Shown here: piece after piece, positions 57,464 through 62,453 of the stretch
How positions within the stretch are numbered: position 1 is the first letter of the stretch
Layout: the number at the start of each line of letters is the position of its first letter
DNA from: Arthrobacter sp. D5-1
GTDB taxonomy: Bacteria; Actinomycetota; Actinomycetes; Actinomycetales; Micrococcaceae
Assembly (NCBI RefSeq): GCF_017357425.1
Contig: NZ_CP014571.1
Span: forward strand, 4,588,001 to 4,652,000
Direction: 5' to 3'
Length of the DNA stretch: 64,000 nt
Made by a program: the position numbers and the translations under genes
The notes under the pieces: generated by a model
Databases searched by the model: none
Told to the model about the DNA's origin: nothing
What the model saw: the letters and a program-made list of their open reading frames with translations, nothing else

Positions 57464-58495
57464 ATGCCCACCCCCGAACATCCCCTGCGCAAGCTTGGTT
57501 TCCTCACTATTGGCCTGTTCGATCCCACGGATCCCGCTGCCGGGCACCAGTCCACGTTGGAGATCATCGAGCTCGGGGAGAGGCTTGGCTTCGACAGTGC
57601 GTGGCTCCGGCACCGCCACCTGCAGTTCGGGATCTCCTCGCCGGTAGCGGTCATGGCTGCGGCAAGCCAGCGCACCTCCAGGATTGAGCTGGGCACCGCG
57701 GTGACTCCGTTGGGCTGGGAAAACCCTTTGCGCCTTGCGGAAGACCTGGCCACCGTGGACCTCCTCTCCGGCGGTCGGATCAATCCGGGGCTGAGCGTCG
57801 GCGAACCCATGAATTACGACACCGTAAAACATGAGCTCTACCCGGACACTGCCGGCGTGGAGGACTTCAGCTACGCCCGCGTGAACCGGCTTGCCCGCCT
57901 GATCGCCGGGGAGAAAGTGCGGGACTTCTCCGGTAAGCAGGGCGTGGTGGAAGAATTCTCCAACCGCGTGGAACCACACTCCGCCGGGCTGCGTTCGCGG
58001 CTTTGGTATGGGGCGGCGAGTATGAAATCGGCGGTGTGGGCAGGGGAAAACGGCTTCAATCTTCTCTCCAGCAGTGTGATCTTCCCGGACAAGGACCAAG
58101 AACCGGACTTCGCCGGGGTCCAGCAGTCACAGATCCGCGCCTACCGTGAAGCCGCAGCCCAGTCGGGGAACACCGCCCGGGCCTCGCAAGGCCTGGTAGT
58201 GATTCCCACAGACTCGGCCTCAGCTGCCCAGCGGAAGAAGTACCAACGCTACGTCGACGAACGTACGCCACGCACCCGCGCGCCCCAAGGGCCGAAGGGC
58301 ATGATGTTCGCACAGGACATCATCGGCACCAGCGATGACATCGCCGAGCAGCTCTACGCCCACCGAGGATTCCAGGAAGTGGACGAAGTGGCCTTCGCGC
58401 TGCCCTTCAGCTTTGACCATGAGGACTACGTACAGATCCTCACCGACATTGCAGTCAAACTGGGGCCGGCATTGGGCTGGAAGCCCGCCGGCTAA
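57464..58495 (+). CDS. LLM class flavin-dependent oxidoreductase
   Basis: 343 residues of the luciferase-like monooxygenase fold. The N-terminal strand LGFLTIGLFDP, ERLGFDSAWLRHRHLQFG, TSRIELGTAVTPLGWENPLRLAED and SGGRINPGLSVGEP are the family blocks. Flavin use could be FMN or F420. The substrate is unknown; actinobacterial members often oxidise alkanes, sulfonates or antibiotics. No flavin reductase is adjacent. Confidence 0.87.
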   Translation: MPTPEHPLRKLGFLTIGLFDPTDPAAGHQSTLEIIELGERLGFDSAWLRHRHLQFGISSPVAVMAAASQRTSRIELGTAVTPLGWENPLRLAEDLATVDLLSGGRINPGLSVGEPMNYDTVKHELYPDTAGVEDFSYARVNRLARLIAGEKVRDFSGKQGVVEEFSNRVEPHSAGLRSRLWYGAASMKSAVWAGENGFNLLSSSVIFPDKDQEPDFAGVQQSQIRAYREAAAQSGNTARASQGLVVIPTDSASAAQRKKYQRYVDERTPRTRAPQGPKGMMFAQDIIGTSDDIAEQLYAHRGFQEVDEVAFALPFSFDHEDYVQILTDIAVKLGPALGWKPAG

Positions 58496-58501
58496 GCCGC
58501 C

Positions 58502-58540
58502 GTCAGGCCGGCCAGCCCGTCAGGCCAGCCAGCCCGTCAG
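58502..58540. repeat. tandem 17-bp repeat
   Basis: GTCAGGCCGGCCAGCCC (58502-58518) is followed by a copy with one change (58519-58535) and a partial GTCAG. It spans the gap between two convergent genes and touches the stop of the next one. Confidence 0.6.
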
Positions 58541-58737
58541 TCCACGAACTCGGATTGTGTCTCGATGAAGTCCCAATCCGCATCTGTCAGCACGCCGCTG
58601 ACCTTGTCCGGATGGGGCCCGCCGGCCTCAGCAATATGCTGCAGCACGGGCAGCGGAAGTTCGTCGGCGCGCAGGTTCTCACGCAGCCATTCCTTGCTGT
58701 CGAGGTGCAGATCGAGCCACCACATGAAAATTTCCAT
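58537..58737 (-). CDS. small hypothetical protein
   Basis: 66 residues, Trp/Leu/Asp-rich (MEIFMWWLDLHLDSKEWLRE), no signal peptide or membrane segment. Codon use is normal for the genome. It lies upstream of, and divergent from, the CHAT protein gene, so it may share its promoter region. I do not recognise it. Confidence 0.55.
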   Translation of the reverse strand: MEIFMWWLDLHLDSKEWLRENLRADELPLPVLQHIAEAGGPHPDKVSGVLTDADWDFIETQSEFVD

Positions 58738-58930
58738 CGCGGACCGCCTTCCGTCAGATGAGCCATGGGTTCTGATGCGCCGTGGGCCCGGATTAACCGT
58801 AGGCCGGGTCAGGAGCGTCTACAAGGGCCCGGCTCTTGTGGCGGGCCGGGCTTAGGGCCAATCTATTCCTAAGGGTGCTCCCGGCCCACTCGATAGTCGG
58901 CCGGACCGCCCGTCACACAAGGGATCCGCG

Positions 58931-61210
58931 ATGGACTGTGACATCGAGCTGGAGATTGATGCCGGCTCTGCACGCGGCGAATATACGGTGCGCGTGGTCC
59001 GTGCACCGGCGGGAGGCCATGCCTCGGGCATGTTCACCCTGGACGTGGAGGGCATCCTTGGACGGCTCCCCCAGCTTGAAGCCACCGTTCTGGCGTCCGC
59101 CGTGGCCGCCCGCAGGACCATGCCCGTGGCTGAAATGGCCGTCCGTGAAGTGGGCCAGCAATTGTTCCAGGCCTTGTTCACCCGCGAGGTTTACGGCACC
59201 TACCGGGCGAGCCTCGGCGCGGCGCAGCATGCAGGCCAGCAGCTCAGGGTGGTCCTGAGGCTGTCCGCCCCTGAACTGGCAACCATGCCGTGGGAGACCC
59301 TGTTTGATCCCGAAACCGAAACCTACCTCTGCCAGACTGAGCCCCTCCTCCGCCATGTCCCCGCGCCTGACTACAACCTGAATCCCCTGGATGTGGCTCC
59401 TCCCCTGCGCATTCTGGGGATCGTCGCCTCGCCGCGGGACCTGCCCAGCTTGGACGTCACCGCCGAGAAGGACCATCTGAGCCGGGCCCTGGCCGGGCCG
59501 GTGTCCGAAGGCCGGGTGGAGCTGGTCTGGGCGAAAAGCGGAACCTGGGATGACGTGCAATCCATGCTGCTGGCCGGGCCTTGGCATGTGGTCCACTTTG
59601 TAGGCCACGGCGATTACGACTCCCGCACCGACGAAGGCAGGATCGCGCTGGTGGGACCTGACGGAAGGGCAGCCATGGTCCGCGCCGTCCGCCTCATGGC
59701 CCTGCTCAGCGTCGCTGCTCCCCGCCCACGGCTGGTGGTGCTGAACTCGTGTTCCTCCGGGGAAATGGGGCAGTCGGACCTCTTCTCCGGCACCGCGTCC
59801 GCTCTGGTCCGGAGTGGGATCGGCGCCGTGGCCGCCATGCAGTTCGCCATCAGCGATTCTGCCGCCATCGCTTTCGCCCACGGCTTCTACGCAGCAATCG
59901 CCAACGGTCGCACCGTGGACGAGGCAGCGCGGGTGGGCAGAATCTCTGTCATGGCCAGCCCGGACGGAACGCTCGAATGGGTCACCCCGGCCCTCTACGT
60001 CCGCGGCGGCACCACCCAGCTGTTCACACTCACAGGAACACCGCGCGCGCCGGCTTCGATTGAAAGTTCGACGGCGGCAAGGGCCTCGGGTGGTCAGGCT
60101 TCGGAACCAGCCCACGCATCTGCGCCGGCCTCACCGCCCGGAACCGGTCAGGGCCAATCCACGCCGGCCGAGGCGGCGCCGGTGCCGGCCACAGAACCGC
60201 AGGCCAACGCCGGGCAGGCCATGAAACGGGCGCAGTTGCGGGCCCTGTATGTCCAGGCGTCCGCTGAGTTGCGGGCCCGGCGCTTGGAACAGGCAGTGGA
60301 ACTGTTCGAAGACCTCCTCACGCTGGAGCCTGGATACCGGGACGCGACGGCGCTCAGAGACAACGCCCGGCACCGGCTGGAGCTGGACCGCACCTACCGT
60401 GAAGCGCTCAAAGCAGAGGAAGCCGAAGACTGGCTGGCCGCGGCTGATGGCTTCGCCGCGGTGCAGGAGGACCCCGGGTTCCCTGACGCCGCCGCCCGAC
60501 GCCAGGACTGCGAGCGCCGGCAACGGATATCGGACCTGCAAGGAGAGCTTCGATACCATTCCTCCCTGGGATCCTGGGAAGCAGTGCTGGACGTGTCGGC
60601 AGAGTTGGCCACCGTGGACCCCAATGCCGCAGATCCCGATCGGCTCGCAACCGCGGCCCGGGCAGAGATCGAAAAGGCCAAGCCGAAAGAGCCACCTCCC
60701 GCTGAAGCGGCTAAGGTGCCTCCGACGCCTGGCGATCAGAGGCCCCACGGTTCGTACACGGCGGCGGATCTACCGGAGCGGCCAGCACGGACGAAAGACC
60801 CGACCCGCGCCAACCCCGGCCCATACACCGCCCCCGGCCCCGGCTCCCAACCGCGTTCAGTACTGAACCCAGCCCCTTCCGTCACCAAAGCCGAGGCACC
60901 CGCTGGGGTCCCGCCGTCGACCGCTGGCCTCCGGGGGTCAGCACCCGGCGTCCCAGCACCCGTCTCCGTTGGCGGGTTTGCTCCACCCCTGCGGACGCCC
61001 CTGCTGTGGGGCGGCGTCGCACTGATCGTGGCGGGCGGACTCGGGGCGTGCTTCGCGGTCTACTTCCTGTGGTTGGACGACAACTATTGGTACGAGAGCG
61101 GCGGCGACGGCTCCTTCGCATCGTTTACGGCCTTGTGGCACCTCTTGGGTACCTGCTGTTGGCGGGCGCGGGCCTACCTGCCCGCACCACCATGGCCCGG
61201 GTGGTCATGA
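58931..61210 (+). CDS. CHAT-domain protease with helical repeats and membrane tail
   Basis: 759 residues as read. Residues about 150-365 form a CHAT (caspase-like) domain: the catalytic His226 in HFVGHGDYD and Cys274 in LNSCSSGEMG. A Ser/Pro/Ala-rich linker (365-425), a TPR-like helical region (about 425-590) and a Pro-rich region follow, then a membrane helix LLWGGVALIVAGGLGACFAVYF near 692-714. The last 26 residues (LWHLLGTCCWRARAYLPAPP..) look out of frame; the adjacent frame continues with membrane segments. The ATG at 58931 has AAGGGA upstream. CHAT proteins act as regulated proteases in conflict and cell-death systems. Confidence 0.85.
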   Translation: MDCDIELEIDAGSARGEYTVRVVRAPAGGHASGMFTLDVEGILGRLPQLEATVLASAVAARRTMPVAEMAVREVGQQLFQALFTREVYGTYRASLGAAQHAGQQLRVVLRLSAPELATMPWETLFDPETETYLCQTEPLLRHVPAPDYNLNPLDVAPPLRILGIVASPRDLPSLDVTAEKDHLSRALAGPVSEGRVELVWAKSGTWDDVQSMLLAGPWHVVHFVGHGDYDSRTDEGRIALVGPDGRAAMVRAVRLMALLSVAAPRPRLVVLNSCSSGEMGQSDLFSGTASALVRSGIGAVAAMQFAISDSAAIAFAHGFYAAIANGRTVDEAARVGRISVMASPDGTLEWVTPALYVRGGTTQLFTLTGTPRAPASIESSTAARASGGQASEPAHASAPASPPGTGQGQSTPAEAAPVPATEPQANAGQAMKRAQLRALYVQASAELRARRLEQAVELFEDLLTLEPGYRDATALRDNARHRLELDRTYREALKAEEAEDWLAAADGFAAVQEDPGFPDAAARRQDCERRQRISDLQGELRYHSSLGSWEAVLDVSAELATVDPNAADPDRLATAARAEIEKAKPKEPPPAEAAKVPPTPGDQRPHGSYTAADLPERPARTKDPTRANPGPYTAPGPGSQPRSVLNPAPSVTKAEAPAGVPPSTAGLRGSAPGVPAPVSVGGFAPPLRTPLLWGGVALIVAGGLGACFAVYFLWLDDNYWYESGGDGSFASFTALWHLLGTCCWRARAYLPAPPWPGWS

Positions 61211-61566
61211 CGGGGGTTGTTGTTTCGGGGGCTCTTTTTGGGCTCTCCGGGCTCACCGAAACGGTGGATCCAACTGCGGTGGTCGCCGGTTTTGTGCATG
61301 CGGGCTTCGGTTTGTGGGCGGGGATCCTTGCCCTGCGCTCCCGCACTTCCGAGCCGTACGGGTGGCTGCTGCTGTGGCCCACAGTGACGGTTCCGCTGGT
61401 CTGGGTCCAGGACAAGGGTGTCTTCCTTGAGTCCTGGTACCGGACGCACGCCTACTTTGTGCTGATTCAGCTGCTGGTTGTGTGCGCAGCCGGGATCGGT
61501 TTCGTGGTAGCGGCCCGCCGACTGCGGGCGTCGGAGAAGGGACAGGAACATGAGCAGGTTGGTTGA
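61207..61566 (+). CDS. membrane protein overlapping the CHAT gene (possible frame-shifted C-terminus)
   Basis: About 119 residues from an ATG that overlaps the CHAT stop by 4 bases (ATGA), giving three predicted helices (VVVSGALFGLSG, AGFVHAGFGLWAGILAL, FVLIQLLVVCAAGIGFVVAA) and a basic tail. The same frame is open upstream to about 61120 and encodes another hydrophobic helix (LVAPLGYLLLAGAGLP), with no in-frame start that has a ribosome-binding site. This suggests either a coupled separate gene or a continuation of the CHAT protein by a -1 shift. It overlaps the next gene by 17 bases. Confidence 0.6.
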   Translation: MTGVVVSGALFGLSGLTETVDPTAVVAGFVHAGFGLWAGILALRSRTSEPYGWLLLWPTVTVPLVWVQDKGVFLESWYRTHAYFVLIQLLVVCAAGIGFVVAARRLRASEKGQEHEQVG

Positions 61567-61891
61567 ATTCACCACCGACGACGGCGGAACGGTTGTTGTG
61601 GAGGTCGCGAACGCAGCGGGGAGCCTGGTAACCCGGGGCGGTGATCACGCGGGGGACCATTCGGGGGTGTTCGCGCGGGCGCAGCAGACGTTCGAGCGGG
61701 CCCTGGCGCATGTGCGTCCAGCGGTGCAGGGGGTGATCGATGAGCTCCTGAGCCTGGAGAACCGGCCGGATGAGGTGAGCGTGGAGTTCGGCATTGACCT
61801 TCATGCCGAGGCGGGCGCTTTCATCGCGTCGGCAAGCACGGCGTCCAATTTCAAGGTGCGGCTTACGTGGAACAAGCCGGCGGAAACCTGA
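61550..61891 (+). CDS. Trypco1-like (trypsin-co-occurring domain) protein, CU044_2847 family
   Basis: 113 residues matching the Trypco1 pattern by eye: an N-terminal strand LVEFTTDDGGTVVVEV, a helical middle (AQQTFERALAHVRPAVQGVIDELL) and the C-terminal signature VSVEFGIDLHAEAGAFIAS followed by FKVRLTW. Such domains are found next to trypsin-like, CHAT or caspase-like proteases in predicted bacterial conflict systems, probably as a regulatory or substrate module. It directly follows the CHAT and membrane genes. The start ATG has AGGAAC upstream. Confidence 0.8.
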   Translation: MSRLVEFTTDDGGTVVVEVANAAGSLVTRGGDHAGDHSGVFARAQQTFERALAHVRPAVQGVIDELLSLENRPDEVSVEFGIDLHAEAGAFIASASTASNFKVRLTWNKPAET

Positions 61892-61946
61892 CGCCGGCCC
61901 CTTCAACAGCCTGTTTTTTGGATCGCCCCGGCGCAACAATAAGGGT

Positions 61947-62453
61947 ATGGTTGCGGAAAATTTCAGCGGACCGATTCCCTTGGTGGTGGGGGTTCTCCCG
62001 GACCAGCATGTGGAAGTACTCCAAACTGCCCGGACCTTGGCTGAGCGGCTCGGCGTCCCGCTGGTGTGCGCATATGTGGACGAGGCGAGTTACCTCGTCG
62101 AGTGGGACCCGTCCCGGGAGACACACCGGATGTCGCTCCACCCGGAGAAGGAAGATGCCGACGTCGAGGCCGTGCGCGGCGACCTCGGCAGGGTGATCGG
62201 GGAGGCGATGGACGGCGGCACGGCAGATTGGACCTTGCGCCTGCTGGCAGGTGACCCAGCGCGGGCATTGGGCAGGCTCGCCGCGGACATCAACGCGTCC
62301 ATGATCATTGTGGGAACGCCCGAGCCCGGTTTGGGGCACAGGATTTCCGAGGCACTCAACGGCTCAGTGGCCGCGTGGCTGAGCCATCACCAACGCCGGC
62401 CGGTGCTGATTGTCCCCCAGAAAAAACGGCCGGAAGCTGCCCATAGAAACTAA
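61947..62453 (+). CDS. universal stress protein family
   Basis: 168 residues with a UspA fold: VVGVLPDQHVEVLQTARTLAERLG, a central helical part and the nucleotide-loop region ASMIIVGTPEPGLGHRISEALNGSVAAWL with VLIVPQKK. Whether ATP is bound is unclear, as the G-x-x-G-x9-G spacing is only approximate. It lies 55 bases after the Trypco1 gene and may be co-transcribed. The ribosome-binding site AAGGG is only two bases from the ATG, which is odd; leaderless or reinitiated translation is possible. A terminator follows. Confidence 0.8.
   Translation: MVAENFSGPIPLVVGVLPDQHVEVLQTARTLAERLGVPLVCAYVDEASYLVEWDPSRETHRMSLHPEKEDADVEAVRGDLGRVIGEAMDGGTADWTLRLLAGDPARALGRLAADINASMIIVGTPEPGLGHRISEALNGSVAAWLSHHQRRPVLIVPQKKRPEAAHRN

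Follow-up and report, generated by a model that had tools for sequence, protein, structure and literature searches.

The window analyzed here is a stretch of 64,000 nucleotides (positions 4588001-4652000) of the 5.1-Mb genome of Arthrobacter sp. D5-1 (G000), and the closest named relatives found are Arthrobacter/Paenarthrobacter. It carries on the plus strand a two-gene cassette (58832..61923) that encodes a CHAT-domain protein and a small protein of the Trypco1 family. This compact pair is real and conserved, and it departs from the trypsin rule behind the Trypco1 name. With a probability of about one half, it represents an optional cassette of the peptidase-based bacterial conflict type, in which two genes encode a membrane-held CHAT protease and Trypco1 as its dedicated partner. 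The domain content, the conserved dyad, the predicted membrane segments, the linkage and overlap of the genes, their presence or absence as a unit and the exchange of C-terminal modules are directly seen. Reading the pair as a variant of peptidase-effector conflict systems, we infer from them the protease activity, the partnership, the trigger and the role in defense.

Organization of the cassette

Open reading frames were searched with Pfam. The CHAT protein is represented by a 759-aa frame (58931..61210, plus strand), delimited by Pfam, alignment, the structure model of the relative P0001 and a frame check. It consists of the CHAT domain (residues 73-344), a disordered linker, a TPR-like solenoid, another disordered linker, the first membrane helix and a tail that is out of frame. 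The CHAT domain matches PF12770 with 98.6 bits, far above the cut-off of 24 (E 5.7e-28), in agreement with an earlier note on this DNA that was made from the letters alone. The catalytic pair named there, His226 and Cys274, is also in place: the codons lie at 59606..59608 and 59750..59752 (plus strand; located by position arithmetic, residues confirmed), and both residues are invariant in 30/30 aligned relatives, picked from the best 120 of 1163 matches. What had been described as a helical repeat region corresponds to the solenoid, which spans residues 422-583 in the model of P0001 (predicted local distance difference test score, pLDDT, 71-96 by block over residues 431-580). The single membrane helix of the earlier note is present as the first of a series; five C-terminal membrane segments are predicted from hydropathy and six from the structure model. 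The membrane-tethered proteolytic switch that had been suggested would fit this anatomy, with CHAT as the putative protease. Two relatives, P0046 and P0067 (locus L010), have extra C-terminal membrane segments (10 and 8 by hydropathy, respectively), as if the membrane domain had been duplicated.

The second gene (61550..61891, plus strand) encodes a 113-aa protein that matches Trypco1 (PF19493) over the full length of the profile (1-98 of 98) with 98.4 bits against a cut-off of 24.6 (E 3.8e-28). It also matches NF041216 (CU044_2847 family) with 73.5 bits against a cut-off of 23. The Trypco1 assignment of the earlier note is thereby confirmed, and both profile matches on which its proposal hinged, Trypco1 and CHAT, exceed their curated cut-offs. 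The protein has no hydrophobic segment (top 19-residue hydropathy 0.94). The first 17 bases of its gene are shared with the end of the preceding frame, which encodes the membrane part of the CHAT gene. A promoter and terminator scan found no site.

A frame break in the CHAT gene

The earlier note counted four genes with overlaps or short gaps. Four open frames do lie at these places, yet a frame break in the CHAT gene of this genome makes the count wrong. Comparison with related loci, which read the CHAT and membrane parts in one frame, shows that frames 1 and 2 belong to a single gene that is split here. The former "second gene", frame 61006-61566, has no Pfam match and contains the C-terminal membrane part (61120..61566, plus strand), now in another frame. 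The frame change relative to intact relatives lies at 61110..61125 (plus strand; tblastn of P0003 against the window); compared with the 91%-identical intact P0003, the window frame switches between 61,117 and 61,120. The CHAT and membrane parts form a single frame of 776-1000 residues in 10/10 Arthrobacter-type loci (L002-L011, those with a CHAT match among the 14 loci of the first relative search), where the frame ends between 10 bases before the Trypco1 start and a 17-base overlap with it. The intact pair at L011 is that of Paenarthrobacter aurescens TC1. Over the part examined, the CHAT frame also runs unbroken through to Trypco1 in 13/13 sibling loci, defined by a window-type Trypco1 in the genus search. 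As three loci are the same DNA, the two sets comprise 20 distinct loci, and the break is seen in none of them.

Since the window frame is 98% identical over 97% of its length to the intact 878-residue protein P0001 and keeps the dyad, the break would be recent or an assembly error. Barring a sequencing error at the break, the local CHAT copy is probably impaired. A programmed frameshift at about 61,117 is not favored, given the read-through in all 20 loci and the 98%-identical intact copy. A generally error-rich assembly is not favored either, as 8/237 frames of the genome G361 are disrupted in G000 and 6/238 in the reverse direction; the CHAT gene is among the eight, and some of the others resemble spurious antisense frames. 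An isolated assembly error at the break is possible.

Linkage and distribution

A search of 101 genomes of the genus found 52 Trypco1 matches, spread over 48 genomes, and 31 CHAT matches, spread over 26. Fourteen of the Trypco1 matches score at least 94 bits over nearly the whole profile, and each of the 14, from 14/101 genomes, follows a CHAT gene on the same strand at a distance of 1.3-2.0 kb; conversely, 14/31 CHAT matches carry Trypco1. Linkage in 14/14 cases at this distance in genomes of 4-5 Mb exceeds chance, the genomes sharing ancestry and thus not being independent. The pairing recurs in other genera and families and in other gene orders: CHAT precedes Trypco1 in the genus and in G1282, and the order is reversed in G907, G225, G404, G558 and G759. 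The CHAT-Trypco1 linkage on which the earlier note relied is stable within the genus and repeated outside it, though partial in the wider samples considered below. Three Streptomyces loci with matches in the first search had no match to the window CHAT protein.

The cassette behaves as a unit. The gene to its right encodes a universal stress protein (USP; 61947..62453, plus strand), which matches Pfam Usp with 50.4 bits against a cut-off of 24 and whose start lies inside the listed frame 61794-62453. A USP at least 88% identical occurs in 15 genomes, all close relatives, of which eight have the CHAT-Trypco1 pair and seven do not. At 7/7 pair-less sites the USP gene stays close to a LysR gene, and neither CHAT nor Trypco1 lies in between. 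At two of these sites, L093 (G370) and L098 (G362), the flanking DNA is nearly joined: about 35-40 bp separate the DNA matching window positions 58,831/58,827 from that matching 61,924/61,931. The unit is thus a 3.1-kb two-gene cassette.

Among plasmid records, Trypco1 relatives were found in 17 (15 Streptomyces, one Nostoc, one Arthrobacter) and CHAT-domain relatives in three; the sole record with both parts is that of Arthrobacter sp. StoSoilB13 (1.35 Mb). Phage records gave no Trypco1 match; CHAT was not searched there.

The C-terminus of the CHAT proteins beside Trypco1 varies. Five or six helices are found in the window clade (more segments in P0046 and P0067), four strong segments in G907, five or six in G558 and G759, one segment with a domain behind it in G404, none in G225, and a WD40 domain in G1282. 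The modules thus include a multi-helix membrane domain, a single transmembrane segment with a further domain, a WD40 propeller and a soluble domain. In a FastTree phylogeny of 18 CHAT domains the transmembrane and WD40 forms are intermixed; P0070 (transmembrane) groups with G855 (WD40) with a support of 0.886.

Relation to known systems

Trypco1 and 2 were named as neighbors of trypsin-like peptidases by Kaur et al. 2020 (PMC7159879), and caspase domains in the systems of that paper are accompanied by an alpha/beta hydrolase; the term 'CHAT' was not found in its main text. PMC10907252 terms Trypco1 an adapter and describes a locus that has Trypco2 together with a target containing CHAT and TIR. 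The CHAT-Trypco1 pair is not described in the examined text of either paper, the two found to name Trypco1; such pairs may be listed in their supplements. A literature search found no paper testing the action of Trypco1, and a search on membrane CHAT proteins in antiphage work turned up PMC10907252 alone.

Pfam was run on 21 proteins (18 neighbors and the three cassette frames) encoded between 46.2 kb of the window and a point about 7.5 kb beyond its end, using script-picked frames, not every frame. No VMAP, trypsin, sigma factor or Cas protein was found among them. The VMAP and related ternary conflict systems in the text of PMC7159879 share with the pair a Trypco1 gene next to a peptidase effector and their occurrence in actinobacteria. 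Here, in contrast, the adjacent peptidase is CHAT and not trypsin, and the MoxR AAA, vWA and VMAP genes of the ternary type, or STAND, do not occur among the scanned neighbors.

As far as the text of PMC7159879 describes it, the closest analogue in layout is System 4, a two-gene membrane-associated caspase system whose partner, EACC1, has a single conserved transmembrane helix and whose C-termini are exchangeable. Both are membrane-associated and prevalent in actinobacteria, and both combine a small constant partner with a protein whose caspase-superfamily domain is N-terminal and whose C-terminal domains are exchangeable. The partner here is Trypco1 without a membrane helix and not EACC1, the caspase is CHAT, and the NCBIfam EACC1-type caspase model matches weakly (17.5 bits, cut-off 140). 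The constant caspase-superfamily N-terminus with a variable C-terminus is thus a resemblance to System 4, not membership.

The SAVED-CHAT and Craspase TPR-CHAT (Csx29) proteases of CRISPR systems have the same CHAT fold with a His-Cys dyad, and TPR-CHAT also has TPR repeats. They differ in that here Pfam finds no SAVED domain, no Cas protein lies among the scanned neighbors, and CHAT is N-terminal with the membrane domain C-terminal. HetF of filamentous cyanobacteria, as described in the text of PMC8406250, likewise combines CHAT, transmembrane and TPR parts in one membrane protein and is a putative protease; it has one predicted transmembrane segment, however, and a role in heterocyst development and division. 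P0001 reaches 51.9 bits with the HetF NCBIfam equivalog model, whose cut-off is 1200. The structural likeness to DdvA, a transmembrane anti-sigma factor of Myxococcus, is limited to the CHAT core, and no cognate extracytoplasmic function (ECF) sigma factor gene adjoins the cassette among the scanned neighbors. The diversity-generating retroelement (DGR) 2 locus of Thiohalocapsa PB-PSB1, in the text of PMC10907252, shares a Trypco-family adapter and CHAT at one locus; there the adapter is Trypco2, not Trypco1, and CHAT is joined with TIR in the DGR-diversified target.

Proposed mechanism and alternatives

In the proposed mechanism CHAT would be a caspase-fold cysteine protease tethered to the membrane through the TPR-like solenoid, the long disordered linkers and a five- or six-helix membrane domain. 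Trypco1 would be its small soluble dedicated partner, serving as an adaptor, an inhibitor or its first substrate. Before any stimulus, the CHAT domain would be silenced by Trypco1 together with the membrane tether. Activation would start with a signal to the C-terminal module, which in this lineage may be a disturbance of the membrane or envelope, and some other cue in proteins that end in a WD40 propeller or in a domain anchored by a single helix. CHAT domains would gather, or the binding of Trypco1 would change. The protease would then cleave Trypco1, a host target or both, leading to a growth stop, so that the cassette would act as a self-contained switch for cell defense or cell death. Tentatively, CHAT-Trypco1 could be a distinct two-gene conflict system, with constant CHAT and constant Trypco1 and with interchangeable C-terminal modules that set sensing or the site of action.

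If true, two unrelated protease folds, trypsin and caspase/CHAT, would have Trypco1 as a general regulator, and such small partner proteins would be common to trypsin and caspase-type systems; the pair would also represent a minimal bacterial membrane-anchored caspase-like switch. Trypco1 has been defined by its trypsin neighbors, and a compact pair with no NTPase sensor among its scanned neighbors, whose protease has an unrelated fold, makes its role directly testable. The hosts are soil bacteria in culture, among which strains with and without the pair occur naturally.

Several observations weigh against the conflict cassette as proposed. The CHAT copy of this genome is broken after the first membrane helix. 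The structure model of Trypco1 has low confidence (pLDDT 57.6), so that contacts are not readable from it. No sensor NTPase (MoxR, vWA, STAND) was found in the scanned proteins and there is no obvious defense island among them. PADLOC recognizes the CHAT part alone, as SAVED_CHAT, with a match spanning residues 210-370. In the genus, 38/52 Trypco1 matches have no CHAT nearby, the closest on one contig being 137 kb away (G309). The Trypco1 relative at locus L015 (Pseudarthrobacter) is likewise split over two frames, and the 10.5 kb examined there gave no relative of the window CHAT. In a family sample of 295 genomes, nine have a relative of the window CHAT domain, with Trypco1 beside it in six (G000, G712, G299, G394, G314, G907) and not in G898, G855 and G883. 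In a class sample of 345 genomes, seven have a CHAT relative at E 1e-30 or better, with Trypco1 beside it in three (G000, G1282, G225) and not in G023, G1316, G1198 and G1179. Within this clade the association is strong, yet it is not obligatory for the CHAT subfamily.

The main rival is a membrane CHAT protein for signaling or cell division, similar to HetF (CHAT, transmembrane and TPR parts, interacting with FtsI) or DdvA, with Trypco1 as a regulatory subunit. It is unlikely, as the pair is accessory (14/101 genus genomes, 8/15 close relatives) where a division protein is expected to be core; moreover, the HetF model score is clearly below its cut-off, and a sigma factor is lacking among the scanned neighbors. 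An addiction pair, in which Trypco1 is an immunity protein blocking a constitutively active CHAT toxin and the cassette mainly maintains itself, would account for the small partner, the overlapping genes and the presence or absence as a unit. It would also account for the broken protease part beside an intact Trypco1, expected if the toxic part goes first. This explanation is improbable: the gene order is not fixed (small gene first in 5/6 loci outside the genus, second within it), Trypco1 also stands beside trypsins and NTPase systems, which is atypical of one-to-one immunity, and the two parts occur together on a single plasmid record, with no Trypco1 in phage records.

That the locus of this strain is a decaying pseudogene, with CHAT inactivated and Trypco1 as the sole functional remnant, is suggested by the break near 61,117, which no related locus has. 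The near-identity to the intact copy, the retained dyad and the few disrupted frames in either direction against G361 make it quite improbable, and it is silent on the other members of the family, which are intact. The stress module of the earlier note, in which protease, Trypco1 and USP act jointly, is largely refuted and very improbable. In 12/14 genus genomes the USP gene does lie no more than 2 kb from the pair (it is on another contig in G342 and G298). A USP relative, however, is present in 97/101 genus genomes and remains at every pair-less site, and none was found in the 6-7.5 kb around 6/6 CHAT-Trypco1 loci outside the genus. The USP is accordingly rejected as a module member and treated as a neighbor outside the cassette.

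Other partners of Trypco1

Trypco1 was found in 14/296 genomes of a phylum sample and 17/396 of an order sample, giving 35 loci outside the genus. One adjacent frame was scanned with Pfam in 20 of these, a non-random choice made to cover 12 of the 13 loci without a trypsin motif. Trypsin is present in 11 of the 20 neighbors, CHAT without trypsin in four (G225, G404, G558, G759) and neither in five. Among the remaining 15 loci, a script detected a trypsin-like motif in 14 and none in one. Three of the 11 trypsin frames also carry CHAT (G103, G538, G740). In G740 (L077/L090) a single frame of 736 residues spans a trypsin-like domain and CHAT, and in G538 (L078/L091) and G103 (L026/L092) trypsin, CHAT, an AAA/STAND-like ATPase and TPR occur in one chain, bringing two protease folds together. 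Further trypsin proteins beside Trypco1 carry nSTAND1 (L016, L017, L035), AAA/NACHT (L080) or VMAP modules (L019, L068).

A second Trypco1 clade within the genus comprises 37/52 matches, with scores of 69-84 bits. In 16/20 examined loci (L052-L057, L059-L067, L074; Pfam on three) its Trypco1 gene lies directly before a gene for a phosphoribosyltransferase-dienelactone hydrolase fusion, a Trypco1 partner outside the recognised peptidases.

Neighboring genes

The scanned proteins around the cassette belong to ordinary metabolism and regulation. A gene for a luciferase-like monooxygenase (57464-58495, plus strand) is missing at 6/7 pair-less sites and present in L099. This absence is a gap separate from that of the cassette, because the intervening stretch at about 58,530-58,750 is kept. 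Within that stretch, to the left of the cassette, a frame of 66 residues (58540-58737, minus strand) matches no Pfam family; its DNA is kept at all seven pair-less sites with about 83-90% identity, and it is probably a real small gene.

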